From assembly GCA_963969395.1 (NCBI GenBank), contig OZ017803.1, positions 2,046,001 to 2,110,000 of the forward strand: 64,000 nucleotides of DNA, written 5' to 3'. The notes below the pieces were generated by a model. It saw only the letters and a program-made list of their open reading frames with translations. It searched no databases and was not told where the DNA came from. Both the position numbers and the translations under genes were made by a program. This stretch comes from Pseudoscleropodium purum (Eukaryota > Streptophyta > Bryopsida > Hypnales > Brachytheciaceae). This document shows, piece after piece, positions 38,348-62,871 of the stretch; within the stretch, counting starts at the first letter, position 1, and the number at the start of each line of letters is the position of its first letter.

Positions 38348-38349
<2 letters not shown>

Positions 38350-38387: not shown

Positions 38388-38388
<1 letters not shown>

Positions 38389-40299: not shown

Positions 40300-40745
40300 T
40301 GACAATGCAGACGGCCCGTCCGCCCCTCTTATAAGGCGCGGACAGCCCCAAACTGTCCGCCCGATTAGATGGGCCAGGAGTGGCGGACGCATCGGCCATC
40401 CGCCTGATCCAACAGGTAGTGGCGGACGGCCCCAAACTGTCCGCCCAATCGGACGGGCCGTGGCTGGCGAACGCATCGGCCGTTCGCCTCCCCGAAATCC
40501 TATAGCCACGTCCGTCCGATCCGACGGGCAGCGGCGGACGGCTCCAAACCGTCTGCCCGATCGGACGGGCCGCGGGTGGCGGACGCATCGGACGGACGCC
40601 TCCCCGAAACCCTCGAGCCCCGTCCGCCCGATCGGACGGTCACGGGGGACAAATTTGGCGTCCACCTGATTTGACAGGCAGGGGCGGACGGATTAGGTGT
40701 CCGCCCTATCCAACAGCCACGGGCGGACAAATCTGGTGTAAACCG
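40300..40745 (-). promoter_or_regulatory. CGGACG-rich GC block upstream of left kinase-like gene
   Basis: A GC-rich block in AT-rich surroundings. It is built of imperfect tandem units around 'CCCCAAACTGTCCGCCC' (near 40,346, 40,430 and 40,542) separated by 'GGCGGACGCATCGG'. At its gene-proximal end lies the palindrome CTTATAAG (40,328-40,335), about 220 bp before the ATG, in TATA-box position. The right copy has a shorter block (57,968-58,143). The promoter role is inferred. Confidence 0.55.
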
Positions 40746-41775: not shown

Positions 41776-43053
41776 TTATTCGGAATCTGAATCGGACTCA
41801 AATTGTTGACCGCTGCCTCTTCTTTGTACTTCAATGAACGGACCACCTCCGTAATTTCCGTGATATCCACTCGGTGCACCTCCTTGTCCATAATTTGAAC
41901 CTCCAAAAGTGGGAGGAGGAACCAATGTAGTAGGCTCTGATCCTCTTTCATTTGAAGCCCCGTGATAAGAGGCCCCATGATGCCCGTATGAATCACTTCT
42001 AGTTGATCCCGGATAGTATTGGGTGCTTCCATGAAGAGAGCAACTATACTGCGGGGTTACATGGCTTCCTCCACTACCTTCGGAGCCCACTTGAGTGGGC
42101 GTAGTATAATATGAACTAAATCCACTAGACCTACCATAGTGCGTGCTACCATAGTGCGTGTTGCTATAGCTACCTACTCCACCTTGAGAGCCAATTTCAG
42201 GGGGAGTGCCATAACGAGAACCAACTGCACTTGAACCACCATAATGCGTGGATCCATAGCTCCCTCTTCCACCTTCATATCTATTTTGAGGATCGTAACC
42301 AGAGTATGAACCACCTCTTCCTTGTTCAGATCCTCGCGTTCCATATTTACGTCCGTAGGACCTACCATGCCTATCTTGCCGTCCATGATCTTGAAGGCTT
42401 CTGCGTGTTGCTTCTTGCATTTGTTGTTCGAATTCAATTCGTTCTCGTTCTTCTACCCGCTCGTGCCTAACTCCAAATGTAATAGGCGCTTGTATATCAT
42501 CGTCATCATCGTTATCTGTCTACGCATCTTCAGCATCTCGTAGAACAACTGAAGGTTGTTGTAGATAACCTCGATTGGACCACTCTGGCATGCAATCGCT
42601 TACGCCCCTCCACTGTGTATCTATAACGGCATCCGTGTGCATATAGTTCTCCACATTGCGACCTATAGCGGCACGCCGATCCACGTCCTTGTGGAGTACA
42701 ATCTCTGCCCAAACCATTGCTATAACATTATAATTCATTATATTTGGTTTGGTGCTTTTAATGCCAAGAACTCGATGCACTTGTGTGTATCGTTGTTTGA
42801 AGTGCTTACTTTGGCACGTAGACATTTGTCTTTCCCAACGTGGCGCTTGGTGCTCTACACGTTCACGTCGCCAAAGTTTTTGAATGTGAGTCATTTATAC
42901 ATACTTCTTGCACATTGAGCAATCCCACACTCTTGTTGGTTCTTCTTCCCATCCCGGTTCACCCACGCACAATGGATCGGTCCAAGCATTTCAATCGAAC
43001 AATTGGGGTCTTTCCTTTCGACTACTTTTTTTGGGTGTTCTATCTTTCGGCAT
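41776..43053 (-). pseudogene. Gly/Ser/Tyr-rich protein with UIM-like motif, left copy
   Basis: 426 codons from ATG at 43,053 to 41,776 in one frame, with three stops: TGA (42,991-42,993), TAA (42,895-42,897) and TAG (42,520-42,522). Residues about 20-125 form a domain shared with the RING protein (MCKKYV, HIQKLWRRE, C-x3-KHF, NYN...MVWAE). After it come WRGVSDCMPEW, an acidic run (TDNDDDDD) and a basic/acidic helix ending EFEQQMQEATRRSLQD, which fits a ubiquitin-interacting motif (acidic, then A-x3-S). The rest is a low-complexity tail of Gly, Ser, Tyr and His (GSTHYG units) ending ESDSDSE. A TATA box lies about 230 bp upstream. Confidence 0.7.
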
Positions 43054-43267
43054 GATGAAGCTGAAGCAAAGAGAATGAAACAATTAGAAAGCTTAAGAAC
43101 CAAAATTTTGATTTAATTAATTAATTAAAATTTTACAAGCGTGAACTTTGTGAAAATTTGTAACAATGTCAAAACAATCGTTCACTCAAAGCGAAGGGGG
43201 CGCACAGAGCTTCCAAGGCACTGGTCCGCCCACTCCAAAAGTGAACGACTGTTTGGAATGAGCCATT

Positions 43268-43643
43268 CGCCTCCGCATATATATATAAGCGGACGCCTCG
43301 AGGCGGACGTTCAGATCATGCGGACCACATCAGTCCGCGTGTCAATCAGACGGCCGTAACCGAGCGGACGGGTATCGAGGTGGATGGGCCGGACAATGCG
43401 GACGCCGGATCGGACGGACAGGGCCGACGGAGGACGGGTATCGAGGCGGAGAGTGCGGACGCCGGATCAAGTGGACTGGGTCGGCAGAGGACGGGGCGGA
43501 CGGGTATCGGGGCGGACGGGGCGGACAGGGTGGACTCCGGGTCGGGCGAACAGGGCGGACGGGGCGGACAGAGTGGACGCCGGATTGGACAGACAGGGTG
43601 AACGGGTATCGGGGCGGATGGGGCGGACAGGGCGGACGCCTCA
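43268..43643. promoter_or_regulatory. GC block between divergent cargo ORFs (left copy)
   Basis: A CGGACG-rich block with tandem units starting GGACGGGTATCG (near 43,368, 43,434, 43,499 and 43,602). It contains the conserved core shared with the MITEs (43,301-43,369; GCGGAC...GTCCGC inverted motif). The TATATATATAAG box at 43,277-43,288 lies about 230 bp upstream of the UIM-like gene (minus). On the other side the 149-codon ORF starts at 43,865 (plus), so the block could act in both directions. The promoter role is inferred. Confidence 0.5.
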
Positions 43644-43864
43644 TCTTAAACTCTAAACCCTAAACCCAATGAAGCAAATTGTTCTTTTTTCAAAATCTAA
43701 TGGTGTCCTGTTGTAGATTTGTATATTAGGTAAAAACATATTATAATATGTTATATTGAGTAGCTTCAAGGTGACGTCGCTCGGATATATATTTAAGAAG
43801 GTAGTTTGCTTTAGAACTTCATTACATTCGAGTAGTAGATTTTGTTTTCTATTTTAGAGTTAGA

Positions 43865-44314
43865 ATGTCGAACTGGAGGGTTTTTTCTGAGTCTCAAAAT
43901 AAAGAGCTTCAACCAGAGGCTGAATTCGAGCTTTCATTGTCACAGCTACCAGATCAACCCCTTTTAGTACGGGATCTTGCATTACCACGTAGGCATCCTC
44001 GAGATGAAGTTGGGCCTTCTAGACCGTCGAAGCAACTTCGCGTGGATTGGCGATGGCACGGTAATCTTGATACCAATGCTTGTGTTTTGGTAATCTTGCT
44101 CCAAGTTGGGTGTGTTGAGCCAGGCACTCGGGAAGTGATTTTTAAAGCGAGTTATGAAGGCAAAAACATCGATCATTATTATTGTATGGTTTGGTCGGTG
44201 GAGGGTAGTCATGGCCATCAACGTTGGTTGAAAGGTCCAGTCAACCCATTGATGAAGTCCGAGCGTACAAATTACGTTGCTGTCACCATCAAACGCATTC
44301 TCAATTTTTTGTAG
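43865..44314 (+). CDS. Hypothetical protein, 149 aa
   Basis: An intact ORF starting MSNWRVFSESQNKELQ and ending KRILNFL. It is moderately acidic at the N-terminus, then basic (PRRHPRDEVGPSRPSKQLR), followed by a compact part with VDWRWHGNLD, YYCMVWSVEG and GPVNPLMKSER. A TATA-like TATATATTTAA (43,785-43,795) lies about 75 bp upstream. It is absent from the right copy, which lacks the whole 43,705-45,920 stretch. I do not recognise it. It may be a complete small cargo gene or an exon of a larger one. Confidence 0.45.
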   Translation: MSNWRVFSESQNKELQPEAEFELSLSQLPDQPLLVRDLALPRRHPRDEVGPSRPSKQLRVDWRWHGNLDTNACVLVILLQVGCVEPGTREVIFKASYEGKNIDHYYCMVWSVEGSHGHQRWLKGPVNPLMKSERTNYVAVTIKRILNFL

Positions 44315-45920
44315 ATGAAGTGAAGCTGTGATTGAAACTCTAATTTTTTATCTCTAGTGAGCATTTATTAAATGTTAGTTACTAATTTTATACTTTGAGT
44401 ATTTTATTAAAATCACAGTGTGTGATTATAAACGTACAATGAAAATTTAGTGATTAAAAGTTAGCTAGGATTTTGGAGTAAAGGGAGAGTGTGAATGGGG
44501 ATTTAGTTTGGCATCTTAGGTGGGGTCTTGGTAGGGGCATGGGCTGATGTGCCCCCACCGCTCACTTGAGATAGGGAAGAAAAGAGGGAAAAGATGCTTA
44601 GTTAGTGTGTGAAAGAAGAGAGAAGTGTGGGTGTGTAGAGGTGTCTTGAAACCGAATTTCGGAGGGAGATATCTCGGTATGTATGAACTCTTTTGAAATA
44701 AAAATTGGTGAGTTTGTTCCTTGTCAAATTAGCTTTCCAAAAGGAGTTTGCAAGCTTGATTTGAAGGATTATTGAAGGAGTTGTGATAGTTTGAAGGTAG
44801 GAAGTTTGTAGTTACCCAATTAAAAAGAGCCGAGACTTTCGAGACCTTTGATGTCTGAACAGTAGCTTGGAATGAGCTCAAATTCGGAGGAATATTAGTA
44901 TATTTTGTTAGCTTTTTATAGACATATTACACTTTACAATTGCAATATTTTTGAGTGAGATATGGAGATTCAAAGGTAGAAAGGTCTATTGCCTTTAGAG
45001 AAGGAAGGCTGAGGCTTGCTTTGTTCACAATGTCAGGACAGTAGTTTACAATGAGCTCAAATTTAGAATGGTATTAGTGTATTTTGTTAGCTTTCTAGAG
45101 ACTTATTATACTTCACAATTGGAGTATTTTTGAGCGAGATATGGAGATTTAAAGGTGAAGAGGTCTGTTGCCTTTAGAAAAGAAAGGCCAAGACTTGTTT
45201 GTCCATAATGTTTAGATAGTAGCATAGAATGAGTTCAAATTTGGAGGAGTTTTAGTTTATTTTGTTAGCTTTCCAAAAAGTTAAGATACTTAATATTTGA
45301 AGTTGTGAAACCTATGTAATATTAGTTTGAAGTTTAGAAGTAGTGTGGGGTTAGTTTTCAATTTTCTTGTTGTGTTTTTGAACACTTCAAGAATACAAGA
45401 CATAGAGGAATGAAGAAATGAAGGAGTGAAGATATTTGGAACCCTCTTGTGTGTTGTGGTTTGAGGCCCGATTTGTTTTATTTGTTATTCTTAGCCGGTT
45501 TTGGAGGCAAGTTGTTTTTCTTTTCTGCATTGTAAACTTGTTGCGGGCTCTGTGGGTATCCAAGAGTAGCCCCATTTTGTGTTTGTGGTGACGAAGTGGG
45601 ATTGATCACCTACATGGTCATATTTTGTTGTTCCCACCGGTGAGGCACGATTGCTGGTCACTGTAGGTTTGAAGTTTAGAAGCCCATCATCCGGATGGCA
45701 TCTCATGTTATGTTGTCCCGTTTTACCCGTCCGAGGCCTGTAGTTTCTTATCACCTATCTGATCAAACCCTTATCCGTTTAGAGCCAACACAAAATAGGT
45801 CAGAGGAAGATTGAAGACCGAAGATTAAAGACCTGAAGATTATTTGAAGTCCCTGGTTAATTAATTCCAATTGCAGCCAGATACCCTGTGTATTCCCAAA
45901 GTGCATTCATCTCAACTCGA
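44315..45920 (+). other. Non-coding stretch present only in left copy
   Basis: Non-coding DNA following the 149-codon ORF, with the 179-bp tandem array (listed separately) and a mixed-composition segment (45,420-45,850) lacking plausible ORFs. It may be 3' UTR plus part of an older insertion. No flanking duplication was found relative to the right copy, so deletion from the right copy is at least as likely as insertion here. Confidence 0.4.
44861..45260 (+). repeat. 179-bp tandem repeat, about 2.2 units
   Basis: 'AGTAGcttggAATGAGcTCAAAT'-type landmarks begin at 44,861, 45,040 and 45,218. Each is followed by ATTTTGTTAGCTTT, and the first two also by 'GAGATATGGAGATT' and GTCTRTTGCCTTTAGA. Units differ by scattered substitutions. 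Confidence 0.8.
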
Positions 45921-46132
45921 CAACGGTATAGATGTTTAACCCCTAAAGTTCTTTTCACTAAAAACACTTTAAAACTGCCATTAGTAGTGCAAATACCAAG
46001 TCTTAGAAGAAAAATACTTTGGGGCATATGTAACCGTAGCATCTTGTAGTAAATTAGTTGGAAAAGATGTAGAAAAAATTTTAGACAAATCCACCATTTG
46101 GATTGTAAGATATTAGATATTGAATGTTTCAT
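45921..46132 (-). repeat. R1 repeat copy inside left composite element
   Basis: Starts at TTAACCCCTAAAG and carries the complements of GGCAGTTTTAAAGTG, GATCTTGTAGTA-like and ATATCTTACAATCC. It matches R1 copies at 4.7-5.2 kb and 8.86-9.06 kb, and is shared with the right copy at 55,340-55,540. Confidence 0.7.
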
Positions 46133-46810
46133 TTAAGGGGGCTACTCAATTATGTCTATTAATGAACAATTGGTAGGCTAACAAACCTAACTTAGCATGT
46201 ATTTTAATATTTGTTGCAATTGTTTTAGGAATATTATAACATAACACTATTATAATATTCTTATAAATGATATAGTACTAAATCATTTCAAAATCAACAA
46301 CATTCGAACACAATCTGTCAATTTTGTCTTCCATACTCCTTTAATGATATATATATATATATATAAATATATATATATATACATAAAATATATTAGATAA
46401 ATCAACATGAACAAATCAATGATTATATATTTCATAGATCTATTCTTCATCAATCAAATAAGAGTGCATGTTCAAATATAGATAAAGATGGTTTCTCTAT
46501 TTGTTCCCAAAAAATAAATAAACAAATAGAGAAAGATATGAAGTGAATGTTACTTGGAGAATTGAAGGGAAAGAAATTGAAGTACTCAATTGCATTTTAT
46601 TAAATTGGAAAATTGCATGTGGATGGCATGAATTAATCTTCATAGATGCTAAACTCATACGAGTTGCATTTCAACATTTATGATTTATGCAATTGATTGA
46701 ATTGAAAGCTCTTGTAATTACATTTTCAAATTTTCAATTCAATCATTCAAATTTGCAAAAGTGATTTATGATAGATTTATAACTTTAAATGTGAAAGCAT
46801 TGAATGCCTT
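46133..46810. other. AT-rich arm of the inverted repeat (left)
   Basis: Pairs with about 54,690-55,330 in inverted orientation. It includes an ATAT microsatellite at 46,346-46,380 whose length differs from that of the right arm (about 55,104-55,126). No gene. Confidence 0.65.
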
Positions 46811-47100
46811 CAGGGTTGACGAATGTCAACGTCCGCCCCAAAATAGCGTCCGTTTTCTGAACATTCGGACGCACGGACGCTAGCGGATGCAGCGTCCCGA
46901 CCGCCGTCGAAAAGCGGACGGGCGGGGCGGGGCGGATGGCCCGAGGCGGACGCCCAGATCGTGTGGACTAGATTAGTCCGCGCGTCGATCGGACGGCCGT
47001 AATCGGGCGGACGGACGGGCGGACGCTGCGTCCGCCAGGACGCGAAGGTCAGCGGACACTGCGGACACAGCGTCCGCGTCCGGACGTCCTGTCAACCCTG
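46811..47100 (+). mobile_element. MITE 3 (hAT-like, GC-rich, 290 bp) with proven empty site
   Basis: Starts CAGGGTTGACGAATGTCAAC and ends CGTCCTGTCAACCCTG. It is flanked by perfect 8-bp duplications aatgcctt (46,803-46,810 and 47,101-47,108). The right arm has a single uninterrupted copy of this site (complement aaggcatt at 54,674-54,681), so the insertion is younger than the arm duplication. The core is at 46,943-47,010. Confidence 0.92.
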
Positions 47101-47935
47101 AATGCCTTTATGCGTTTGTTCATCAATATATTAATTTTAAATAAATAATATATATTTTTTATAACATATGCATAAACCATTGCATTAAAAAAAACAAAAA
47201 CTAAGAGTCAAGCCAAATAGGCTGGTCAAATGAAGAGAACAAGAGAACAAGAGCCCTACGAGAAAGCAAAGGAAAAAAAGAAAATATCAAAAGGATTCAA
47301 AAGAAGGAGCAAGATGCATTCTTGCAAGACCGTAGAATACATAATGATTTCAAAATCCAAACACAAATATATTTTCTATTTCAATGAGAGCCAAAAATGA
47401 AAAATGAACTACCCTGCTCTCAAAGACTGTACAATGTACACGTTATACAAAACGAACATATAACAGAAAGAATAGAAGACATCGTTTATCATGATTGAAA
47501 ACTGAAATGATTTTTTCTTTCTATGTAGAATATTTTATGAAATGTAACAATGTATCTAATTATCATAGTAATTGGTAGAAATCTTTGTACAATACATAGA
47601 AACATTTCATTCATGTGGAGTTTTTTTATTTATTTAGGATTAAAATTGAAGTATTATACTCTACAAAGTACAAACCAAAAACAATACCATATACCTTAAT
47701 TCAAAAGTTTGCAATTGTTTTGTGAATTCATTTTGAAAACTCAAACGAAGAAATATTTTATAATCAATATCTTGTTCATTTGAATCATTTCAAAATTCAA
47801 AATCCGAATTCAATTCCTATTTATAATAGAAATTATGTTTGTCAATTTTTTAGATCTTTAAACAATGAACCCTCTTTTTTAAAATTAATATTTAAAAACA
47901 TCTGAAATAAGAATATTGGATTTATCCTTCAAAAT
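47101..47935. other. AT-rich arm of the inverted repeat (left, inner end)
   Basis: Pairs in inverted orientation with about 53,855-54,673. The homology ends exactly at MITE 4. No gene. Confidence 0.65.
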
Positions 47936-48252
47936 CAGGGTTGACATGATGTCCGGACGCGGACGCTGTATCCGCAGCGTCCGCTGACATTCATATCCCG
48001 GCAGACGCAGCGTCCACGTGTCCCCCGTCCGCTTGTCTGCCCGTCCGCCCCGTCTGCCCGATTACGGCCGTCCGAGCGACGCGCGGACTGATCTAGTCCA
48101 CACGATCTGGGCGTCCGCCTCGTCCGTCTACCCCGCCCCGCCCGTCCGCTTTCTGACGGCGGTCGGGACGTTGCGTCCGCTAGCGTCCGTGCGTCCGAAC
48201 GTCCGAAAAACAGACGCTATTTTGGGGCGGACATTGACATTCGTCAACCCTA
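47936..48252 (-). mobile_element. MITE 4 (317 bp) at a rearrangement junction
   Basis: A complete MITE in minus orientation: CAGGGTTGACATGATGTCCG at the left, ACATTCGTCAACCCTA at the right, core at 48,055-48,122. The flanks ttcaaaat and ctttgcat do not match. The left flank is the left composite copy and the right flank is mid-element D. The MITE therefore marks a breakpoint, probably recombination between two MITEs or a deletion starting at one. Confidence 0.75.
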
Positions 48253-48810
48253 CTTTGCATAAAATTGTTTCTAATTCCAAATTTGTACTCACACCACTCT
48301 TCACTAGAAACTGGATTATAGTTCTAGTAATTCAAAGGTACCATGCGCAGCTCTTTTGTCTCGTATCTAATAGCATTACAATAGCATTACAATAGCATTC
48401 CCTTAATCCGATCTAGTTATCCGAAATCCAAATTCCTCCTCACCTGTCCTTCTCACATCTCAACACTCTAAGCAACAAACCAACACAATCCGGATACATT
48501 GTTGGAACTAGAAGGTTCACCAAATGATTCAAATTAAAGAAAAGAATGAAATACAACAAAATAATTGTTAGGATGGAATGAGAGGGCAACAAACTTGCCT
48601 GCCCTTAAAAACCAAAACTAAAACCAAAGTCAATGCCTAAAAAGCCAAAAAGGCACCTTGGAAATCAGGGCAACCAATGAGTAAACAACTCGGGATATTT
48701 GGAACATTCACGACCCAACTATCCGTACAAATCTGAAACCCCTAAAACAATTTGGAACTTCTAAAACAATCCGAAATCCGAATCTACGCTTGGAAATTCT
48801 GTTCTGGAAT
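48253..48810 (-). mobile_element. Element copy D, part 1 (interrupted by composite element)
   Basis: Matches the non-coding part of copies A-C (for example copy B from about 29,685 to 30,205), including GTCAATGCCTAAAAAGCC. It ends at ...GTTCTGGAAT, where the composite element is inserted. It resumes at 60,395. Confidence 0.75.
48803..48810 (+). repeat. 8-bp target-site duplication, left
   Basis: Sequence tctggaat, identical to 60,395-60,402. Removing 48,811-60,402 rebuilds GTTCTGGAATGAAAAATTC, colinear with GTTCTGGATAAAAATCC of copy B at 30,196. Confidence 0.92.
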
Positions 48811-49024
48811 CAGGGTTGATGAATCTCAACGTCTGCCCCAAAATAGCGTCCGTTTTCCAGACGTCCGGACGCACGGACGCTAGCGGATGCAGCGTCCTTC
48901 CCGCCGTCGGAAGGCGGACGCGCGGGGTGGGGTGGACGGGAGGCGGACGGGCGGGGCGGACGGGCGGGGCGGTCGGGCGTACAGAGCAGACGGGACGGAC
49001 AGACAGGGCGGACGGGGCGGACTT
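48811..49024 (+). repeat. GC-rich 5' terminal region of composite element
   Basis: The first about 130 bases match the 5' part of all four MITEs (AAAATAGCGTCCGTTTTCC, CGGACGCTAGCGG). CGGACGGGCGGGG-type low-complexity DNA follows to 49,024, where AT-rich DNA resumes. Confidence 0.8.
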
Positions 49025-49324
49025 CGCATTGCCATTAGTCATTAGAAAATTTTATATTGTTATGTAATTTGAATGTTACACAATCACAAATGAATGCATC
49101 CACGTAAAATAAGATGTACATATAAAAATATTTTTATACGCAAATGAAAATATAGCATCTTTATATATAAATATATATGTATAAACAAAATACATGAAAA
49201 CATAGTTCCAATATCACTATTGAATCCTATAAGATCTTTTTAAGATCTAAATCTTTCACATTCTTTTTTGTTTTTAAACAATGAAAGGACCATTGTTTTT
49301 AAAAAACAAAATTCTCCTCAAATC
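49025..49324. other. AT-rich 3' flank of RING gene
   Basis: Non-coding AT-rich DNA between the element's GC-rich end and the stop codon of the RING gene. It probably includes the 3' UTR. Confidence 0.5.
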
Positions 49325-52300
49325 CTACTTTCCACCGGATGGACCACTACCTTCTCCCAAAACAAAAGGAAAATCTGCTGTACCGAGGAGTTTAGCAGAT
49401 GATTGACGAGTTGACCGTTGTTGACTTGGACGGACTATTCGCCCTCCAGATTGAACTTCGATGTCCACCTTATGAAATTGTTTCTTGGTTTCCGGAGAGA
49501 AGTCATCGTCCTCTTCACGCTTCCTTTTTTGTTTTCTTTTCGGTGATAAATCGACTTCGTTTGCCTTCAAGGTTCTCAAGTTGCTCTCCACACGATCTAC
49601 CATTGCTTGAACAACTTCATCATCTCCTTTCCCTTGCCATACTGTGAGGCAGTCTCCATCCAATAGGAAAGCCTTCCAATGCCCTATAATATCGCCAATG
49701 CGCCTATCAAATGCTGCTGCTACATCTACAGATGAATGTCATGTGCTTGTTAGTCCATTTGTATCGTAGACAGCACGAACTTTTGCAGCCTCTTCCAACT
49801 TCGACAATAGAAGGGCCCTACCTACGAGGGTGTGGTCGTATGCCTTATATTGCTCATTGAACTCTTTTCCATGGTTCACCTCCACCCAACTATCTTCTGG
49901 TCCTCTCTCCACTTTTTTATCTGGAAAACAAAAGAACTTTTCGTGTTGCAAGCTCCAATGTCCCCCCATGTTGCGACAAAACATTTCACGGGCCGCGTCA
50001 TCTACGATTCCTCGAGCCCGCAATTCCACCTCTCTATTGTAAGTCATCCACACATCCAAATCCAATGGTTGCTGAGATTCCTCGTACAAATCATGCCTCT
50101 GTTCATTTGCATTCCACCGGATTGGCTTCCCCCAATGTTGATAATTTTGAAATTTGTACGGCGCTTGATCAAGAGGAAGATTCCAATGATTGTACTCGTG
50201 GCCTGGAGGCATAGCTTCCAAGATACCAAACATTTCGTAGAACCTAGCACTCAATGGACTACGACACTCGGCACACACCGAACGAATGAGTGATGCTTTC
50301 ACAATGCAAGTGACATGGAAAGTGTGGCGACATTGGCCCATGGTTACTGCACCTTCCGGTCCGAAGAGGCCTTGGCAAAGGCTACAACAACCATCCAAGA
50401 TTGGAGAGGCTGGATCACAAGCATGCACCACTCGCTTGTCTTTCACATTGATGTGTGTTGAAAGTGTGTTGTAAGGGACCCATCCTTCCTCTACTTCCAA
50501 GGCCCAATTGATGGGTAGAGCTTGGTCCTTCTTTGTGTGGTTTAACCGCTCAAACATGGCATCCATGTCTCCCCAACATGTGATCTCCGTATATCTCTTT
50601 GAAGGATGTTGGTCAAACATAGTCTTGAACCAACTCAAAGAGTTTTGAATGGCATCGCAATTTTCATTCGACTCCATTGCCAATGTTTGAAGACCTGCCA
50701 TTGCTCGAGATACTACAGAGGGCCTGTCTTGGAGTCTTTGTACCCATGCTAACCATCGAGACTCCAAGCCGCTAGATGGCATAAACTTCTTCAAATCCAA
50801 AGACAATTGCAATCGATTCAACTTGGATTCAAAGATTCCTTTTGCTTCAATTGCCTCCTCCAATTTATGCTTCAACTCTTCAAAGTCACAACTCTCCGTT
50901 TGCGTCTCCGCATTCACGTAAACGGATGAAAGCTTTTCCATTGATGGTTGTTGTGTCGCTTTTAACATGCTCATGTCGTGACTTTCTTGTACATTCACAA
51001 TGGCAGGATTGTCGCTTGCTTCGGCCTTATCAAAAGGAAGAGAGAGTTTATCTTCACTCTCTTGACTCTCTTGACTGTCTCCGAGTACAATCACTGGTGA
51101 GATTGCAACCTCACTTGGATTTTTGGAGGTCCCTTGCAATTCTGCAATCCGTTTACACATCTTCGTCAACTCCTCCATTTGCCTTGATGATTGTTGATTT
51201 AAATGTTCAACCTCACTCTCCGAAGTCTTTAATTTCAACTCCAACACTTTGCACCTTGCTTCCACTCCTTCAAGGTCAGCAATTTTCTTCTCATATTCCA
51301 CCAATTGTAGTATGTGAACATCTCTTTCTTCGAAAAGTGGTCTGAAAGTCTTCGTGAGATTCTGAAATGCTATAGCACCTTTCAACATCTCTAGTGCTAT
51401 TAAAGAAAACTCCTTGGCCAAATTCATAAAAGTCGGAGCAGCTTGCGCTAAAAATTCAGCTGACATCGTTATCTTGAAAGTTGTATCAAGTATATGTGCA
51501 ACATCCTTTGGATCTGCAAGTGGACTCACTAGAATAGTAGTAGCACCATCATCGGGGTTCGACGATCCACCTATTTCTTCATGAAAGTTAGCAAACTGAA
51601 CCGAGAGCTTCCAAAGATTTTCCAATTGTTTTGGATTGGACATGTCTTGCAAGGTTCGATGTAGAGGACTTGGCAATGCCGCTGTAATTGGAAACTCCTC
51701 CGCCTGCCTTTTACGCTCGAAACTCCATAATGAGGATATATTATCAATCGTCACGCCTTGTCCATGAGGCGTATGTATTTTGTCTTCTAAACTTAAGGCT
51801 GGACTAGATTCAACACCTTGATGCACAGGCGGAGATTTGTAGATCAAACTATCAAAACAATTGTTGGCTATCAGACTATCAATTGTAGCATTAGCCTTTG
51901 CCACTTTCTCCACCAAGACTTCGTCTACTTTACTTTTTGAAGTTTCCCCGCATTCCGTGCAAACCTTGCCTTGGTTTACAAACTCCGTTTGCGTTTGTGC
52001 CGCAACATTTGGTGTAAAGGTCAAACGCGTTGGAGCTGTGGAAAAGACTTCACCCTCCTGCGCCTCTACATCTTTCTCCACATCTTTCCCCACATTTTTC
52101 GAAGAGCTTTCATTGATTGCTTCTGTTGGAGATTGTACAGACCGTAATTCTTCAACATTTGAGGCTTTCTCCACACCATCCGTTTTCACCTCAATAGTAT
52201 TTTTTAATATTTTTTCTGTTTCTCCCTCTGAATTGTACAAGTCAGGAATGTCCTTTTGATTGGCTTCAAGTAGAAGTGGGCAAGCTGTTGTCGTTGGAAA

Positions 52301-52732
52301 CGTGCTCCAATCGATCTTGCGCTCTAATATAAGTTCCGCATAAACCATACACGCCACGCTATAATTAATATAGCCTTTACTTCTGCGCTTGTTTCCGAAT
52401 AGAACACGCCACACCTCCTCAGATCGATGGACAAAATGTTTGTTGTTGCAAGTCCATGGTTTACAACAAAAATCCCGTGTATGACTTCTGTGCGACTCCT
52501 GAGGCCACAACTTGTCAATGTGGTACATTTTAACATAGGTCCTGCACATTTTTGATGTCCAATACTCCGCATCTTCATCTTCCCACCCGCTCTCTGCTTT
52601 AATTGTAGGGTCATTTAAAATGTCAAGCCGAAGGTCGTGCGTAGCCCCCTTCACTTTGCTTTTTTTCTTCACTTCGCTTCCCGGAGTCACCCCATCCATA
52701 TTTCGATCACCTTCGCCGTTCATGATTGTCAA
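49325..52732 (-). pseudogene. RING-H2 protein, cargo gene (1135 codons, one in-frame TGA)
   Basis: ATG at 52,732 opens 997 residues to a TGA at 49,739-49,741; the same frame then continues 137 codons to 49,325. Residues about 35-142 form the domain shared with the UIM-like protein (MCRTYV, HIDKLWPQE, C-x3-KHF, NYSV...MVYAE, DW). A long Ser/Glu-rich low-complexity part follows, then coiled coil about 465-535 (KKIADLEGVEARCKVLELK). The RING-H2 at about 781-825 has CSLC, CRHTFHVTC and CAEC, with all eight ligands in C3H2C3 order. The tail after the TGA ends in a basic NLS-like KRKQKRKREE. It is likely a RING-type E3 ubiquitin ligase, nuclear if the tail is made. A TATAAG box lies at 52,937-52,942, about 205 bp upstream. 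It may be functional with a truncated tail. Confidence 0.75.
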
Positions 52733-52936
52733 TTAGATTCAATAACCAATTGAAGTGAATAAAAAAATCTCACGTGATAGTCAAAAGTGATGGCATCAAC
52801 CGCAACACAGTAACACAAGATAGAAGACCCCAACTCTCCACCCCGTAGGAGCAACTAGCGCATAAAGCAATAGTAGCACATCCAACTTGGCACCGAAGGA
52901 GAATTGAAGTGAGAAGAAATGAAAAGTCACTCCACC

Positions 52937-53192
52937 CTTATAGCCGTCCGCCACCGGACCTGCCCTGGACCGCGCGAAGCGGCCCCGAACCTCGCGTCCG
53001 CCGCGCGGACCGATGACGTCCGCTTCGACAGCGGACGCGCCGTCTGCCCGTCGCCCCATCAGACCGACCCGTCCGACCGCCCGTCCGACTGGCACGTCCG
53101 CCCGGACTATCCGCACTGTCCGCCTTCCGACACCGTCCGCGCTTTGGACACGCCGACCGCCCCACTTAAACACTGACCGCCGACGGCGTCCA
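52937..53192 (-). promoter_or_regulatory. GC block and TATA box upstream of RING gene
   Basis: A GC-rich CGGACG/CCGTCCG block ends at its gene-proximal side in TATAAG (complement at 52,937-52,942), about 205 bp before the ATG. The arrangement is the same as for the other two cargo genes. The promoter function is inferred. Confidence 0.6.
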
Positions 53193-55339
53193 TCCAGTTG
53201 TCAATTGGTGCATCCTATGAGGCCATTATTATTCAAAAAGAGCGGTAACATTTCAAAAATAAAACAGCCTAATAATCACTGCTAAATGAAGATCAATGTA
53301 ATTGGTTTGTCATTTTTTTTTTCTAAATGTAAACCCTAAACCTTATACCCTAATTACCCTAAACCTTTTCTTTTCTCCTCTAAATTGTTTTACGAATGAG
53401 GGGAATGTGGTTAAGTTGAATATGTTTGAATTATTTACTGATATTATTCCTCTAAATAGGTTTTGAGAAGATCTAAAGATGGTGGGGATTTTTTTAAAGT
53501 TCATTAGGAAATCAAATGTTTTGCAAAAATAATCAATTCCATTTTCATTGTAAGCAAATGAAATTAAAAAAAAAGGCCCCAATACATAATTAGAATAACA
53601 GTTAAATGGATTTCAACCTCATGATATTTAATGAAAGGTTGTGATTTCTCATTAAAAGTGCATCACGATCTTCAAATGAACATCGAGTCTTTCATATTTT
53701 TTAATGAAATTTTGATTAGATTTGAAAACAAAGAAAAAGAAACAATGTTTTAACTTTCAAATCATGTATGGCTATATTTTTTCTTAAAAACATAGAAAAA
53801 TTCGTTACTTGAGTTGGTGGAGTAGAATACATTATACATGTGCTATATTTATTTTGAAGGGTAATTCCAATATTCTTATTTCAGATGTTTTTAAATATTA
53901 ATTTTAAAAAAGAGGGTTCACTGTTTAAAGATCTAAAAAATTGACAAACATAATTTCTATTATAAATAGGAATTGAATTCGGAATTCGATTTTTGAAATT
54001 ATTCAAATGAATAAGATATTGATTATAAAATATTTCTTTGTTTGAGTTTTCAAAATGAATTCATGAAACAATTGCAAACTTTTGAACTTAGGTATATGGT
54101 ATTGTTTTTGGTTTGTACTTTGTAGAGTATAATATTTCCATTTTAATCCTAAATAAATGAAAAAATACCACATGAATGAAATGTTTATGTATTGCACAAA
54201 GATTTCTACCAATTATTATGATAATTAAATACATTGTTACATTTCATAAAATATTCTACATAGAAAAAAAAAATCATTTCAGTTTTCAATCATGATAAAC
54301 GATGTCTTCTACTCTTTCTGTTATATGTTCGTTTTGTATAACGTGTACATTATACAATCTTTGAGAGCAAGGTAGTTCATTTTTGGCTCTCATTGAAATA
54401 GAAAATATATTTGTGTTTGGATTTTGAAATCATTATGTATTCTACGGTCTTACAAGAATGCATCTTGTTTCTTCCTTTGAATCCTTTTGATATTTTCTTT
54501 TTTTTCCTTTTTTTTCTGTCTTGTAGGGCTCTTATTATCTTGTTCTCTTCATTTGACCAGCCTATTTGGCTTGGCTCTTAGTTTTTTTTTTTTTTAATGT
54601 AATGGTTTATGCATATGTTATAAAAAATATATATTATTTATCTAAAATTAATATATTAATGAACAAACGCATAAAGGCATTGAATGCTTTCACATTTAAA
54701 GTTATAAATCTATCATAAATCACTCTTGCAAATTTGAATGATTGAATCGAAAATTTGAAAATGTAATTACAAGAGCTTTCAATTCAATCAATTGCATAAA
54801 TCATAAATGTTGAAATGCAACTCGTATGAGTTTAGCATCTATGAAGATTAATTCATGCCATCCACATGCAATTTTCCAATTTAATAAAATGCAATTGAGT
54901 ACTTCAATTTTTTTTCTTTTCAATTCTCTAGGTAACATTCACTTCATATCTTTCTCTATTTGTTTATCTATTTTGTGGCAACAAATGGAAAAACCATCTT
55001 TGTCTATATTTGCACATGCACTCTTATTTGATTGATGAAGAATAGATCTATGAAATATATAATCATTGATTTGTTCATGTTGATTTATCTAATATATTTT
55101 ATGTATGTATATATATATATATATATCATTAAAGGAGTATGAAAGACAAGATTGACAGATTGTGTTCGAATGTTGTTGATTTTGAAATGATTTAGTACTA
55201 TATCATTTATAAGAATATTATAATAGTGTTATGTTATAATATTCCTAAAACAATTGCAACAAATATTAAAATACATGCTAAGTTAGGTTTGTTAGCCTAC
55301 CAATTGTTCATTAATAGACATAATTGAGTAGCCCCCTTA
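53193..55339. other. AT-rich arm of the inverted repeat (right)
   Basis: From 53,855 it pairs with 47,935 downward in the left copy. 53,193-53,854 has no partner in the window. Degenerate telomere-like CCCTAAACC words lie at 53,330-53,366. No gene. Confidence 0.6.
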
Positions 55340-55540
55340 AATGAAACATTCAATATCTAATATCTTACAATCCAAATGGTGGATTTGTCTAAAATTTTTT
55401 CCACATTTTTTCCAACTAATTTACTACAAGATCCTACGGTTACATATGCCCCAAAGTATTTTTCTTCTAAGACTTGATATTTGCACTACTAGTGGCAGTT
55501 TTGAAGTGTTTTTAGTTAAAAGAACTTTAGGGGTTAAACA
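55340..55540 (+). repeat. R1 repeat copy inside right composite element
   Basis: Carries TACTACAAGATCCTACGG, GTGGCAGTTTTGAAGTG and 'TTTAGGGGTTAAA', matching R1 elsewhere. It is homologous to 45,921-46,132 of the left copy. Confidence 0.7.
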
Positions 55541-55602
55541 TCTCTACCGTGAGATTTTGAAAAAAGAACAATTTCCTTCATTAGGTTTAGGGTTTAAGAT
55601 GA

Positions 55603-55935
55603 GCCGTCCGCCCTGTCCGCCTTGTCCGCCCCGTCCGCCCTGTGCACCCCGTCCGCCGCGATATCCGTCCGCCGTGTTCGCCCGATCCGGAGTTCGCCCT
55701 ATCCGGCCCGACCGCCCCGTCCGCCCCGATACCCGTCTGCCCAGTCCGCCCTATCCGGCGGTCCCCCCGACCGCCCCGATACCCGTCCGTCCGGTTATGG
55801 CCGTCCGATTGACACGCGGACTGATGTGGTCTGCATGATCTGAACGTCCGCCTCGGGGCGTCCGCATATATATATGGGGAGGCGGACGGCTCATTCCGAA
55901 CAATCGTTCTCTTTTGGAGTAGGCGGACCAGTGCA
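55603..55935 (+). promoter_or_regulatory. GC block and TATA box upstream of right UIM-like gene
   Basis: A CCGTCCGCC-rich block containing the MITE core in minus orientation (55,794-55,857) and TATATATATAT-like sequence at 55,866-55,875, about 230 bp before the ATG. It is shorter and rearranged relative to the left block. Promoter role inferred. Confidence 0.5.
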
Positions 55936-56098
55936 TTGGAAGCTCTGCGCGCCCCTTCCGCTTTGTGTGAATGATTGTTGTGAGATTGTTACAAATTTTC
56001 ACAAAGTTCACACTTGTAAAATTTTAATTAATTAATTAAATCAAAATTTTGGTTCTTAAGCTTTCTAATTGTTTCATTCTCTTTGCTTCAGCTTCATC

Positions 56099-57376
56099 AT
56101 GCCGAAAGATAGAACACCCAAAAAAAGTAGTCGAAAGGAAAGACCCCAATTGTTCGATTGAAATGCTTGGACCGATCCATTGTGCGTGGGTGAACCGGGA
56201 TGGGAAGAAGAACCAACAAGAGTGTGGGATTGCTCAATGTGCAAGAAGTATGTATAAATGACTCACATTCAAAAACTTTGGCGACGTGAACGTGTAGAGC
56301 ACCAAGCGCCACGTTGGGAAGGACAAATGTCTACGTGCCAAAGTAAGCACTTCAAACAACGATACACACAAGTGCATCGAGTTCTTAGCATTAAAAGCGC
56401 CAAACCAAATATAATGAATTATAATGTTATGGCAATGGTTTGGGCAGAGATTGTACTCCACAAGGACGTGGACTGACGTACTGTTACAAGTCGCAATGTC
56501 GAGAACTATACGCGCACGGATGCCGTTATAGATACACAGTGGAGGGGCGTAAGCGATTGCATGCCAGAGTGGTCCAATCGAGGTTATCTACAACAACCTT
56601 CAGTTGTTCTACGAGATGCTGAAGATGCGTGGACAGATGACGATGATGACGATGATATGCAAGCGCCTGTCACATTTGGAGTTAGACACGAGCGGGTAAA
56701 AGAACGAGAACGAATTGAATTCGAACAACAAATGCAAGAGGCAACACGCAGAAGCCTTCAAGATCGTGGACGGCAAGATAGGCATGGTGGGTCCTACAGA
56801 CATGAACATGGAACGCAAGAATCTGAACAAGGAAGAGGTGGTTCATACTCTGGTTACGATCCTCAAAATAGATATGAAGGTGGAAGAGGGAGCTATGGAT
56901 CCACGCATTATGGTGGTTCAAGTGCAGTTGGTTCTCGTTATGGCACTCCCCCTGAAATTGGCTCTCAAGGTGGAGTAGGTAGCTATAGCAACACGCACTA
57001 TGGTAGCACGCACTATGGTAGGTCTAGTGGATTTAGTTCATATTATACTACGCCCACTCAAGTGGGCTCCGAAGGTAGTGGAGGAAGCCATGTAACCCCG
57101 CAGTATAGTTGCTCTCTTCATGGAAGCACCCAATACTATCCGGGATCAACTAGAAGTGATTCATACGAGCATCATGGGGCCTCTTATCACGGGGCTTCAA
57201 ATGAAAGAGGATCAGAGCCTACTACATTGGTTCCTCCTCCCACTTTTGGAGGTTCAAATTATGGACAAGGAGGTGCACCGAGTGGATATCACGGAAATTA
57301 TGGAGGTGGTCCGTTCATTGAAGTACAAAGAAGAGGCAGCGGTCAACAATTTGAGTCCGATTCAGATTCCGAATAA
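56099..57376 (+). pseudogene. Gly/Ser/Tyr-rich protein with UIM-like motif, right copy
   Basis: Exactly 426 codons, like the left copy, with stops TGA (56,159-56,161), TAA (56,255-56,257) and TGA (56,474-56,476). The first two stops are shared with the left copy and the third is private (left reads Arg there). The last 271 codons from 56,561 are open and include the acidic run, the UIM-like EFEQQMQEATRRSLQD (near residues 206-222) and the GSTHYG-rich tail. The N-terminal domain matches the RING protein. The UIM-like motif suggests ubiquitin binding; this rests on motif reading only. Confidence 0.7.
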
Positions 57377-57967
57377 AAAAACATGCAAGTATATAGTGAG
57401 CATGTGTTTGCTCGATTTTCTCATTTTACTCTCACGACAAGTATAGAACACTAGATTGGTAGAAGTAGTACAAAATTTTAAATGAATAGAATAATTTTGA
57501 ACAATTTTATTCACTTTTTCAAAAAGTGTTGTGTAATAGTGTACACCAAGTATGTATGTAGGCAAGCATATTGTTGAAGACATCATTGTATTATTTTATA
57601 ATATTGTTGATGTATAAGGCTAAAAGCGACTTTGATAAATAATAAAAATATGAAGAAGAAATGTAATTTTGTAAGAGCCATATTATGTCTATTTTTGAAT
57701 TTAGCATTCGAGGTTAAATATGTACTAGCATGGTGTGTATTTTGAAATTATTGTTGTGTATTTATTACATTTAGAAACTCATAAATGGTAACAATGTATT
57801 TCTAATTAATTTATGAAAGATTAAATTATTTGAATATTAGAAATTTTTTTATTTTTCATTCAACGATTGCTAAAAATTAAAATGATTTCTTATTGGTATG
57901 AAGAAATGCCCAAATTAGACAATTAGTGGTTCTTCTTTAGATTCTATTTTCAAATATGAAAAATAAA
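57377..57967. other. AT-rich spacer between right cargo genes
   Basis: 57,377 to about 57,757 is nearly identical to the left copy, then divergence and deletions appear. No gene; small ORFs here are reverse-strand shadows. Confidence 0.6.
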
Positions 57968-58143
57968 TCGGATCGGGCGGACGTTTGATTTGTTCGCCCG
58001 TGCCCGTCGGATCGGGCGGACGGGGCTCTAGGGTTTCGTGGAGGCGGACGGCCGATGCGTCCGCCACCCCCGGCCCGTCCGATCGGGCGGACGGTTTGGG
58101 GTCGTCCGCGCCCCAATAAGATGGGCGGACGGGCCGTCCGCAT
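57968..58143 (+). promoter_or_regulatory. GC block upstream of right kinase-like gene (shortened)
   Basis: A CGGACGG-rich block about 175 bp long against about 445 bp in the left copy. The TATA position has CCAATAAG (58,113-58,120) instead of CTTATAAG, so the box appears mutated. Confidence 0.5.
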
Positions 58144-58336
58144 TGTTACTTTTGCTTTGCCCCTTGTGAATGCAAGGTAGAGCGGAGAGCTTGGTGGTTC
58201 ATCCTCCATTGGCTCCTTTCCTAGGCAAGGCAAGAGTGGTTTATTGGGGCTGCCTTGTTGCCAATTTTTTGGACACTTGCGCGTGAATTTAATTTCAAAT
58301 TAAAAAATTTGATCTATATCAATTTCATTTGTCACG

Positions 58337-59830
58337 ATGCCGAACGGGAAGAAGAAGATTGCAAAGCTTAAACATGGAGAGGGACCATCGAACTTGGAAG
58401 TAGCTCGCCAAAGTCCTTCAGAAGAATGCAAGAAATTCATGATTGAACGCATTGTTCAATTCTATGAATCGGAAACAACATTGTCTTTAAACAATAAGTA
58501 CATCAGATATCAAGAGGAGTGAGTATCTAAATTCAAGGTAGACATAACACAGATGTTGTTGGATGCATTGAATGTGGCGAAGTGGCATGACGAAATGCAT
58601 AAAACGTACTTCACCAAATGTTTGGAGAACAAGGTTCATGACGCTTTGTGGAATTCCAAAGTCATTTTGGTTAAATATGGCAAGGAATATCGACCCAATG
58701 ACACCCAGTTTGAAGAAGTGATTCTGAAAGCGGACTTGTTTAGGGGGCGATGTGCTCCATTCGCCAAAAAGCACAATCGAGTTGGTTCGATTGCTTGGTG
58801 GAAAAGCAATGATGGAGTTGCTGAAGCGGAAAGGACCAAACGACACCTCATAGTACTTCCAGATACAGCATGCGTGATTGTTGTTGATGATAGAACGATG
58901 AGAGGTGGATATGCAACGATTCGAAAGGTTCGTATTGAAGGATGTCCAGGAATACTTCCTTATTGGGAGTTTGCGGCAAAGAAATCCATTCACCACCAAA
59001 CTCGACCCGATCTTGCAAAATTAGAACATCAAAACGAATCAATGGCTATTCGAATTCCACACGCGGGTGTGATACGGTTTACTGCAGTGCACGGAACGAC
59101 GTGTGAAGGTTATGCGTATTGGTGGAATGGTGGAACTCTTCGACAAATGTTGAATATGGATAAAGACTATCCAGACAACATTCAAATCCGTCTGATGTAT
59201 ACGAATCCAACCGAAGAGGAGGTTGTAAAAGCTCACCGTTTAGGGCGATATCGGAAGAAGTGCACGGAGCTGATATGGGCGTTTATGCATATTATGTATG
59301 CAGTGCATCTTGTTGGACATTTGCACAATGATCTTTCTCCGGACAACATCTTGTTGCATTTTCCAGAGGATGAGTTACATGTGTACATTGGAGTTTGCGA
59401 TTGAGGCATGATCACCTTAGCTTCTCAGCCAATGAAGTCTTTGTACACATTCACATCAACAGATGAGATGAAACAAACTTTGCAGAGAAGATGGTGGATG
59501 GATCCATGTATTGCATATTTGCATAAAGTAGGTGCAGATGTGGAAGTCATTCCGATGTATTCAAGTAAGTTGGAAGAGTATGCCATTCGAAAAATTGCTC
59601 GGCGGATGAATGGAAACAACATGTCAGGGGCGTATTTCAACATGCTACAAAAAACACCTAGTGCGACACAATTTGCCTTTCATGACTTTGCAAAAGTGTT
59701 TTATGCTTACTTGAAGCGCATTTCTTCGAAGACTGACGATGAAAATACTAGTTTGGCCGATGTGATTACGCGATTTTCTAATACATATCGTTGGCCGATG
59801 CCAGATGAACATTTTCGCCATTTATATTAG
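58337..59830 (+). pseudogene. Kinase-like cargo gene, right copy
   Basis: 498 codons, identical in length to the left copy, with two in-frame TGAs: 58,520-58,522 (private; Cys TGC in the left copy) and 59,402-59,404 (shared). It has the same kinase-like landmarks: RGGYATIRKV, AAKKS, HLHNDLSPDNILL and VCD before the shared stop. The first half (to 59,081) differs from the left copy at about 28 positions. The second half differs at one, indicating recent homogenisation of the 3' half. Confidence 0.7.
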
Positions 59831-60235
59831 ATTGGTAGTGCAGAAATAGTAGTTGAATACTTGAATAGGTTATATAGGCATTAAAAATTAGTTTAGAAAT
59901 ATAGAGTTGGAATGAAAAAAATTATATGTGCAATTAGCCAAATGTGCACAATGTATGGTATTCTACATTAAATTGAATACATTTTGCCCATATTGATTAT
60001 GTTTGTATTTGTATTGATCTTGATTTTTTAAATAGTATATATATATATTTGAAGTCACAAATTTTTTTAGTTTGCCTTTTGAAAATGAATTGGAATTTTT
60101 TCATAGTTTCAAGACTATCATGGACTCGTGGTCAAACTTTATAATCTTTCAACTTATGAGAGACATTGTTTTAATAACAAATCGCGAACCATTGCACTTC
60201 ATTTAACATTTAATTGTTTAAAGATTAAGGGAGTG
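59831..60235. other. AT-rich 3' flank of right kinase-like gene
   Basis: Non-coding. It aligns to 37,990-38,617 of the left copy with several indels, including the AT microsatellite and the ~190-bp segment found only on the left. Confidence 0.6.
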
Positions 60236-60394
60236 ACCGCGGGGCAGTTTGGATAGGGCAGTCGGGGGAAATAGGGTCGTCTGGGGGGACGGGGCAGACG
60301 GGTGGGGCGGACGGACGGGGCGGACGGGGCGGTCCCGGTGGACACTGTGGGCACAGCGTCCGCGTCCGGACGTCCGGACGTCGTGTCAACCCTC
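60236..60394 (+). repeat. GC-rich 3' terminal region of composite element
   Basis: Ends GCGTCCGCGTCCGGACG...GTCAACCCTC, matching the 3' ends of the MITEs and, inverted, the left copy terminus at 37,780-37,990. Confidence 0.8.
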
Positions 60395-62871
60395 TCTGGA
60401 ATGAAAAATTCTACCTAATTACCTGCGTTCTATCTAGCTTGCCGTGCCTTCTTTGAGCTACTCCCGCTTTGACTGCCCAGAGTCTTCATTGATGCCTTTA
60501 CCGATGTACACTTTGCTGATGACCGAGTTTGAGGCTTATGCAAAACCTTTAGAGGCAAGTCTTCAAATTCAATCTCTTCCTCAGATTCGGACTTCAACAC
60601 CTCCTCTTTCGACTCCTCAATCTCATGAATCTCCAGATCGTTGGCTTGCGGCGACTCACTTTGTTCAATTTCAATACGATCCCATTTTGGTGTTGACTAT
60701 TGTATATACAAGAAATCTTGCGGATGAGACTAGGCTGGATTTGTCATTATTCCAATTTGTGCATCGAGGTTGCCGTGAATAGCCAACCCGGATATCATGA
60801 ACTTTCTAACCATGACTTTTCCAGGTGGTGGGAGAATTTGGATGAAAACTCCTTACTTTGTCGGAGCGGGCTTCTCATTTTCCCCTTTCTCTGGTTCAAG
60901 TACCACTGGCCTAATAGAGTCAATGCTTGATTGCCTAATAGACCCGCAACTGGAGTGAGGATAGACTTTAGTTCCTCTAATTGTGGCTAAATCAAACCAC
61001 TAGAAGCCTACTGGATTGGAGTTTGTCAAACCAAAGTGTCTTGGAATATGCTCTTGGAGACTTCTGGAAACCCTTCTAAGTCGATAGCTTGTTCCAAATC
61101 CAGGTATTCCAACAACTTACACATATCCTTCAAAACAATCCTCATCCGAGCTTTGAAGTCGACCAGAATCTTTACCATCCTTAGTCCGGTCATATGTCCT
61201 TTCTTCAACCAAATGGTGAAGAGGTTAGCTCAAATTACCATATGCTCCAAAACTATGACGAGTTCCTTGAGGGTGTAAACAAGTCGAAGAGCCTCTATCT
61301 CCTTCCGTCTTGTTGTGTTCAACTCCCCCTCCATCCACTCGAGTTGGAACTTGAAGCTATCCTTTTCTTCCTCTAACTTCCGAATTTGTTCCTCCTTCTA
61401 TCAGAATTCTTCCGGATTCGGACGTTTCCAGATCTCCTCCAAAATTTGGTCCAACTCCACCTTGAATTTGCTCGCAATAAGGAACACGTGATCCTCCAGG
61501 TCACCGTACATCTATTTGGTTTGTTGCATCCACTACATTCTGGCTTCGAAGAACTCCAGTTCTTGGAGATGTTCCAGATCTGGAATTGGTTCTTCTCATT
61601 CCGGTTTTGGCACCTTCTCCCATGCAGCTGGATCTGTGGACTTCCTTCGTCTCCAATTCACTACTTCTTCTTTTTCCGATTGCTCTTCTTCTTTGGATTC
61701 CTTCTCCTCCTTCTCTAGCTCATCCGTGAGGTCGTACTTCAGGATTTCGATTCCGGTGTTGTACTAAATCGTCTCTTTTGCACTCAAGACCTCCTTATAT
61801 TGAAAGAGGTGGAATAGATATGGGGTGATAGGGCTATGCTTCCCTCGGCCTACGTACCTTGCTAGTTTGTCCTTTATTCTCTGAATCACTCTCCTCCAAT
61901 GGACAATTCGGTCCTCGAAAGCCTCGAAAATGGTATTGACCACCGTGACCGTTACCAGGGTAGGCTTTTCTGGATACAAGATCGGAATTAGAAAGTTGAG
62001 TACCTATCTATGCCTCCGTTCTTATAGTCACTGATGAAAAAACCCTCCTTTGAGTAGGCTTGATTCCAAAACTTTTTGGCTACGTATTTATCCGCTCTTC
62101 TGGCTAGTCCAAGTTCATTCTATTTAAACAAATAGACATCCGCCCTGATGTCTTCCGTCCAAGCTATGAGTTGACTTCTCATTGTCAACTTGTATTGGTT
62201 CGGAACTCCGTAAATGAGTTCTTGAATCATCTCCTCATTCTTCATGCTCCATGGCCTATCTAACAATCCGACACACTCGATATATATGAGATCCTCCTCT
62301 AACTGCATTTGGTGAGCCGGATTAGAAGGAATAATCGAATAAACCATCCGGGCTACAATTCCAGACTTTCATGCAGTCGGATTAGTAGCTGCCGCTATGA
62401 ATCACCGACAATTGATAACCTATTCCGGTACTGATCTATCCATTCTTTTCCTATCTCGGTCGCTAACTCACTACTCTTTTTCTCAGCTATACGTTTACAA
62501 AGTTCAGTAAGTAGAAAGGAAGAGAAAGAGAAGTAGCGGTGGGTTTAAATACCTAGTGCGTGGCCGACAATTCCCAGTGGAGAATGGGTAGAAGACCATT
62601 CCTCTAACTGTCTTCTAGTTTCCTAAACCAAAAGTCTAGAACGTAGGTTTTAGGAATCTGGTACTTTCTGGATTCCAGATCCGTATCAGATTTGTTTCCA
62701 TAACATTACTAACGATTTTAGCATTCCGGAAACTAACTATATCTATTATAGTTGTAGAGTAGTGAAAAACTGAAAATCTCTAGGGGTTACCAAGAAAAAT
62801 AAAATTTGCAAGTCTATCTAAGCTAATTCCAAACTAATTTATCTAATTTGAGTTTTTGTGCTTCCACAGTA
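60395..62871 (-). mobile_element. Element copy D, part 2
   Basis: Resumes element D after the composite insertion, beginning with the duplicated tctggaat. It contains the decayed minus-strand gene and 5' leader, and ends ...CTTCCACA, i.e. TGTGGAAGCAC on the minus strand, the same boundary as copies B and C. Confidence 0.7.
60444..62400 (-). pseudogene. Decayed gene of element D (unrecognised, about 620 codons)
   Basis: The minus-strand reading parallels copy B. The start codon is mutated ATG to ATA at 62,400. Open pieces include 62,120-62,347 (LEEDLIYIECVGLLDRPWSM, WTEDIRADVYLFK) and 61,764-61,979 (MYPEKPTLVTVTVVNTIF, FEDRIVHWRRVIQ), then a Glu/Lys-rich coiled coil and Ser/Glu-rich tail. Several stops interrupt it. 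The conserved order in three copies defines the ancestral protein; its function is unknown to me. Confidence 0.6.

Follow-up and report, generated by a model that had tools for sequence, protein, structure and literature searches.

What kind of mobile unit carries three genes and no transposase of its own, and how could it have spread? The question is raised by an 11.6-kb insertion in the moss Pseudoscleropodium purum (assembly GCA_963969395.1, contig OZ017803.1), at positions 48811-60394 of a stretch of 64,000 nucleotides (contig positions 2,046,001 to 2,110,000, forward strand), which we call the window and from whose first letter coordinates are counted. The original prediction for this locus described a hAT-like composite transposon loaded with a RING, a UIM-like and a kinase-like gene as cargo. 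Ends of the CAGGG type and 8-bp target-site duplications are the hallmark of hAT transposons of the Ac/Tam3/hobo kind. Our analysis confirms a complete hAT-type insertion and leads, with a probability of roughly 0.85, to the view that the window element is a transposase-less member of a high-copy hAT family, that a RING-finger-like gene has replaced the transposase gene, and that the element spread through the transposase of sister elements acting in trans.

The left end of the element, CAGGGTTGA, begins at 48811 and the right end, TCAACCCTC, stops at 60394, its final base deviating from the G that is usual in other copies. A perfect 8-bp duplication, tctggaat, flanks the ends at 48803-48810 and 60395-60402. 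The site comprises one left end, one right end and one matching duplication, that is, a single element and not two elements at the edges of a larger unit, and the label “composite transposon” does not apply. The insertion lies inside one unit of a host repeat named element D, which occupies 26149-34818 and 60404-62764 of the window as several units of about 3 kb, mostly 60-90 % alike; three scanned open reading frames (ORFs) of this repeat gave no convincing Pfam match. Removal of the insert in silico and joining of the flanks restores element D, as had been claimed, in the sense that the joined flanks give an insert-free alignment with two of three host-repeat paralogues (30061-30385 and 27031-27360); alignment to the third (33821-34150) is poor. 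The claim that the element lacks a transposase also holds for the five ORFs scanned with Pfam, none of which contains a transposase domain, and the element is accordingly classed as a non-autonomous hAT member.

Element positions are counted from the left end at 48811. The left terminal inverted repeat and a subterminal part common to transposase-bearing elements (48811-48939, plus strand, element 1-129) are followed by a swapped block (48940-53095, minus strand, element ~130-4285), which here holds the RING-finger-like gene (49325-52723, minus strand), a single long frame of about 1,132 codons from the first ATG, and in the transposase-bearing elements a hAT transposase gene. Then come a middle block common to the transposase-bearing elements at 92-94 % identity (53096-55585), the “UIM-like” gene (56099-57376, plus strand, about 425 codons), the kinase-like gene (58337-59830, plus strand, 497 codons), and the right subterminal repeats with the terminal inverted repeat (60242-60394, minus strand). 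The terminal inverted repeats are short and start with CAGGG or alike. Ahead of the UIM-like and kinase-like genes stand repeat blocks (55597-55778, belonging to repeat family D3 and akin to the subterminal repeats, and 57968-58109); these formerly “promoter-like” blocks turned out to be the same sort of G+C-rich repeat as the subterminal ones.

The element is one of many. A search of the genome (313 Mb in 52 contigs) with its left 250 bp gave 2,860 first-look candidates; the 40 that were scored all match it at 84-100 %. For 20 of the 39 left ends other than its own, the 10 kb inwards were fetched, and the element body is present in every one, with long aligned pieces that are 89-97 % identical; some of these copies have deletions or insertions, or are rearranged or interrupted. 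We refer to transposase-less, RING-bearing elements as R type and to their transposase-bearing sisters with the same ends as T type. Perfect 8-bp duplications flank 11 of the 13 R copies whose far end was fetched, and also L026, a 7.9-kb deletion copy. The far end of L009 was not found in the fetched stretch; the duplication check covered all 20 copies except L011, L012, L013 and L027. Further insertions with these ends exist, and hAT-type ends with 8-bp duplications, first noted for the window copy, recur in the R copies just mentioned, in L026 and in four of six T copies.

Matches to the ends are not due to chance, since a right-end pattern of 24 positions, some of them free, has 996 matches in the genome and a left-end pattern 1,943, and the reversed-pattern controls have 0 each. 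Individual end positions were taken from the matches listed, the first 100 for each pattern, all on contig C1. In the first 14.6 Mb of C1, with 48 right and 100 left ends, 31 right ends have their nearest inward left end less than 20 kb away, as against 7 outward pairs of any rank. These 31 inward pairs split into 20 of 262-335 bp, which are miniature elements, and 11 of 6.4-15.8 kb. The left end of the fetched R types is the variant CTCAACG, with a few single-base differences. Two R-type copies show peculiarities of their own: L022 has the RING and kinase-like genes without a UIM-like gene, and in L027 (oriented, 852-4119) the RING gene is interrupted by a 3.3-kb insertion that is probably a nested element and has two ORFs (318 and 289 codons).

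The postulated relative with the same termini and a hAT transposase of its own was found as well. A search for the hAT dimerisation region yielded 664 candidates; 17 of the 150 that were scored are on C1. Fourteen of these 17 fall within the part of C1 that is covered by right ends among the matches listed, and by eye six of these are placed 7.4-8.0 kb inward of a right end of the same orientation. Two of the latter, L042 and L043, were retrieved in full or almost in full. L042 measures 9,787 bp, in line with a T-type size of about 9.8 kb, and is flanked by the perfect duplication TCCAAAAG. Its left slot holds a hAT transposase gene instead of the RING gene, recognised by the Pfam families DUF659 (E 1.3e-30, 106.6 bits, cut-off 34.7) and Dimer_Tnp_hAT (E 4.4e-9, 36.5 bits, cut-off 21.4). 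At the transposase N terminus, zf-BED scores 17.2 bits in L042 and 14.6 bits in L053, below the cut-off of 20.6. The middle block of L042 is 94 % identical to that of the window element, and the kinase-like genes of the two match in three pieces at 76-92 %. L043 has the same layout and is likewise flanked by a perfect duplication; both copies contain the transposase and the kinase-like gene, without the RING or the UIM-like gene. A further transposase-bearing copy, L053, combines transposase, UIM-like and kinase-like genes within 12,015 bp that include a nested miniature element. Among six T-type copies whose ends were checked, four have perfect duplications, one has seven of eight bases alike by eye, and in one the end was not found.

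Of the transposase-bearing elements, L042, L043 and L053 were read at length; each contains the kinase-like gene, and one of them, L053, contains the UIM-like gene; the RING gene was seen only in transposase-less copies. The presence of the kinase-like gene beside the transposase marks it as the family's own gene rather than cargo, and the picture of three cargo genes has to be abandoned. Genome-wide, a 24-mer from the transposase has 531 matches and one from the kinase-like gene 866, each with at most two mismatches and with partial copies included; the controls gave 0. In the first 14.6 Mb of C1, nine of 15 transposase matches lie 1.99-2.06 kb inside a left end, in every case one of the CTCTACG variant found in T types; the other six have no end on that side within 5 kb among the matches listed.

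Comparison of the two types locates the exchange. The two types can be aligned over ~130 bp at the left, and again from about element position 4286 as far as the right end, but not between. The genes that occupy the swapped slot, RING in R and transposase in T, share the minus strand and a length of about 3.4 kb. The left end of the window element shows 78 % identity to the L042 left end and 90 % to the L053 left end. To the right of element position ~4290, long aligned pieces of L042 and L043 are 92-94 % identical to the window element, and the outermost ~200 bp of L043 are 75 % identical to it. The history that we favour would start from a family chassis of the T type, with the shared ends, the middle block, the kinase-like gene and a transposase in the left slot. 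The transposase block at element ~130-4285 would then have been replaced by the RING gene to give the R type, which would subsequently have spread as the T-type transposase acted in trans on the shared ends. Both the mobilisation of R-type elements by the T-type transposase and the direction of the swap are what we infer from these comparisons. The kinase-like gene, and perhaps the UIM-like gene too, would most likely be accessory genes of the family; it is a guess that they aid transposition or, by way of phosphorylation and ubiquitin, blunt the control exerted by the host.

Several observations weigh against this history. The transposase frames of L042, L043 and L053 are each interrupted or split, so that all T-type transposase frames that were read are broken and none of these three copies offers a present-day source of transposase. 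The RING genes of 13 full-length R copies diverge by 3.7 % on average, and the burst is accordingly not fresh. In L015 the end was found but the flank does not match, which leaves this copy without a duplication, and L018 and L022 end within the fetched stretch with no duplication detected by eye. L053, the sole transposase-bearing copy with a UIM-like gene, has flanks that do not match. Moreover, 52 diagnostic sites that separate two T from 17 R copies are mixed along L053, L012, L013, L022, L025 and a second family member in the window, copy B, and also in stretches of L018 and L027. Exchange between copies of the family therefore seems common, judging from these mixed sites, and the original layout is uncertain. 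With its unmatched flanks and mixed diagnostic sites, L053 was no longer taken for a complete autonomous element with three genes and may instead be a recombinant, as recombination could have produced it in a family with several mosaics. The mosaic copies L022, L012 and L013 also contain a block of 404 bp whose other occurrences are in T types.

The names given to the three genes are less secure than the element itself. The RING protein shows C3H2C3 metal-ligand spacing by eye and matches the Pfam family zf-RING_11 just under the cut-off of 27, both in the window ORF (E 2.4e-5, 24.4 bits) and in the domain region of L015 (E 6e-6, 26.3 bits). The window frame has one in-frame stop (49739-49741), and the frame of L015 is open throughout, with 1,137 codons from stop to stop. 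A genome search with this gene scored 46 of 1,617 first-look candidates, all 92-100 % identical. The UIM name is without profile support: the motif was recognised by eye only, and up to E 10 the Pfam UIM profile matched neither the ORFs of the window copy and L011 nor a peptide of 51 residues, although the HMMER filters may drop weak matches. The UIM-like frame is broken in the window copy and open over 409 codons in L011. The RING and UIM-like proteins nevertheless have a homologous N-terminal domain in common (BLASTP E 9e-12; hhalign probability 100 over 116 columns, 34 % identity). The idea that this domain is a relative of the BED-like finger of the transposase failed, with hhalign probabilities of 0.4 and 1.0.

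For the kinase-like gene the support is weak. Catalytic motifs of the HxD..N and DxG type can be read by eye (HNDLSPDN and CDWG), and Pkinase matches at E 0.015 with 15.2 bits, below the cut-off of 31.7; the window ORFs gave no Pkinase match. The best PDB matches have E values of 0.068 (a kinase) and 0.042 (a calmodulin-like chain), and a fold predicted without an alignment had a confidence score (pLDDT) of 36 and was not used. The N-terminal region of the protein, compared by hhalign with those of the RING, UIM-like and transposase proteins, matched none of them (probability at most 0.2). The window frame has two stops; an in-frame TGA at 59402-59404 is present in the window element and in copy B, and the corresponding position encodes W in L013, L018, L022, L026, L042 and L043.

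Could the genes simply be passengers? In maize and rice, hAT elements that carry genes have been described (PMC8903248), and the window element might be an ordinary non-autonomous element of this Pack-hAT kind, with captured pieces of three host genes. The RING gene behaves much like a passenger within the recent burst. Substitutions common to at least two copies were compared with singletons among 22 aligned copies (fewer at many sites, and mosaics included), and its ratio of nonsynonymous to synonymous changes (N/S) is 2.17 for shared and 2.30 for singleton substitutions, near the neutral 2.52 (p 0.45), and ten of the shared changes create or alter stops; the gene looks about neutral, with no sign of constraint. 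The search of the moss's own genome was saturated by near-identical element copies, which make up all 46 matches scored out of 1,617 candidates, and host parents of the genes may have gone unseen in it. However, the carried genes are long frames and not small fragments, the RING frame being open in L015 and most of the UIM-like frame in L011. Random capture would not predict a domain common to the RING and UIM-like proteins, nor does it fit well with the kinase-like gene that L042, L043 and L053 all carry beside the transposase and the UIM-like gene that L053 has as well. We regard the passenger explanation as unlikely.

A different possibility is that the two types serve each other in trans, the T type with its transposase and the R type with its RING and UIM-like proteins, for example as regulators or silencing blockers. 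The common N-terminal domain speaks for it, as does the precedent of accessory genes in Mutator elements (mudrB, vanB and vanC; PMC6446971). Shared N/S is also below singleton N/S for the UIM-like gene (1.85 vs 4.02, neutral 2.51, p 0.001) and for the kinase-like gene (1.44 vs 2.87, neutral 2.56, p 0.015, with fewer copies). Without CpG sites, however, the contrasts weaken to 2.31 vs 4.30 (p 0.035) and 1.65 vs 2.59 (p 0.19), and the UIM-like shared value then lies so close to neutral that part of its contrast stems from high singletons; the two genes are under weak constraint at most, and the RING gene shows none. Furthermore, L042 and L043 have perfect duplications yet lack the RING and UIM-like genes, which are thus not needed in cis. 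Such mutual service seems to us rather improbable, and slightly more so in its fullest form, a two-part hAT system in which the T type would supply the transposase and the R type would be a mobile regulator that acts through the ubiquitin pathway and the kinase and helps both to escape host control. Finally, the RING gene occupies the transposase slot in the same orientation and at about equal length, as might a very divergent transposase that made the R type autonomous. Pfam up to E 10 reports no transposase family in it, BLASTP has no match below E 1 between its protein and two pieces of the L053 transposase, and the N-terminal profile comparison with the transposase is negative, which makes this the least credible explanation by far.

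Other traces of the family lie nearby. Copy B (37780-47935, minus strand) is an inverted member with the kinase-like gene, the UIM-like gene and the middle block. Its left part (element 1-5040) is missing, and the broken edge abuts a miniature element with the same ends (47936-48252, minus strand, no duplication by eye). Another miniature element with these ends is nested in copy B (46811-47100, plus strand) and has the perfect duplication AATGCCTT by eye. Two more, at 33098-33349 and 36423-36727 (both plus strand), have flanks with seven of eight bases alike by eye, and the four range in size from 252 to 317 bp. Copy B is also interrupted by a 2.35-kb insert (43570-45922), whose small ORF at 43805-44314 has no Pfam match. 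It was rejected as a fourth gene of the family, with related DNA only at the insert edge and in L011 outside the aligned body, and on this comparison it is treated as an unrelated insertion. Farther away, imperfect inverted repeats 4-5 kb apart (4436-5118 and 8876-9829, 85-86 % identical) resemble in part element positions 6538-6711 (72-77 %).

To our knowledge, hAT elements are single-gene elements, and we know of no accessory genes in them. With autonomous hAT elements such as Ac, Tam3 and hobo the present family has in common the 8-bp duplications, the short CAGGG inverted ends and, in the T type, a transposase with DUF659 and the hAT dimerisation region; it differs in the kinase-like gene beside the transposase and, for the window element, in the lack of a transposase. 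Full-text literature searches brought up no hAT family of this make-up among the titles and abstract openings listed, which is no proof of absence. The nearest precedents are Pack-TYPE elements (PMC8903248) and the accessory genes of Mutator elements (PMC6446971). The former, including Pack-hAT, are likewise non-autonomous, carry genes and are mobilised through shared ends. In the moss, by contrast, the same genes recur: the body is in 20 of 20 fetched copies, all 46 scored RING genes are near-identical, and the kinase-like and UIM-like genes also occur in transposase-bearing copies. Among Mutator elements, MuDR (mudrB) and Hiun/VANDAL (vanB, vanC) are plant DNA transposons with genes beside the transposase; the superfamily is another one, the present family having 8-bp duplications and a hAT transposase, and a functional likeness would exist if the element benefits from its kinase-like and UIM-like genes.

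With transposase and RING gene in one slot of a common chassis, and a kinase-like gene in both types, the question of how DNA transposons gain regulatory genes would become testable. The same family would also make it testable whether non-autonomous elements can be more than mere parasites of autonomous ones.

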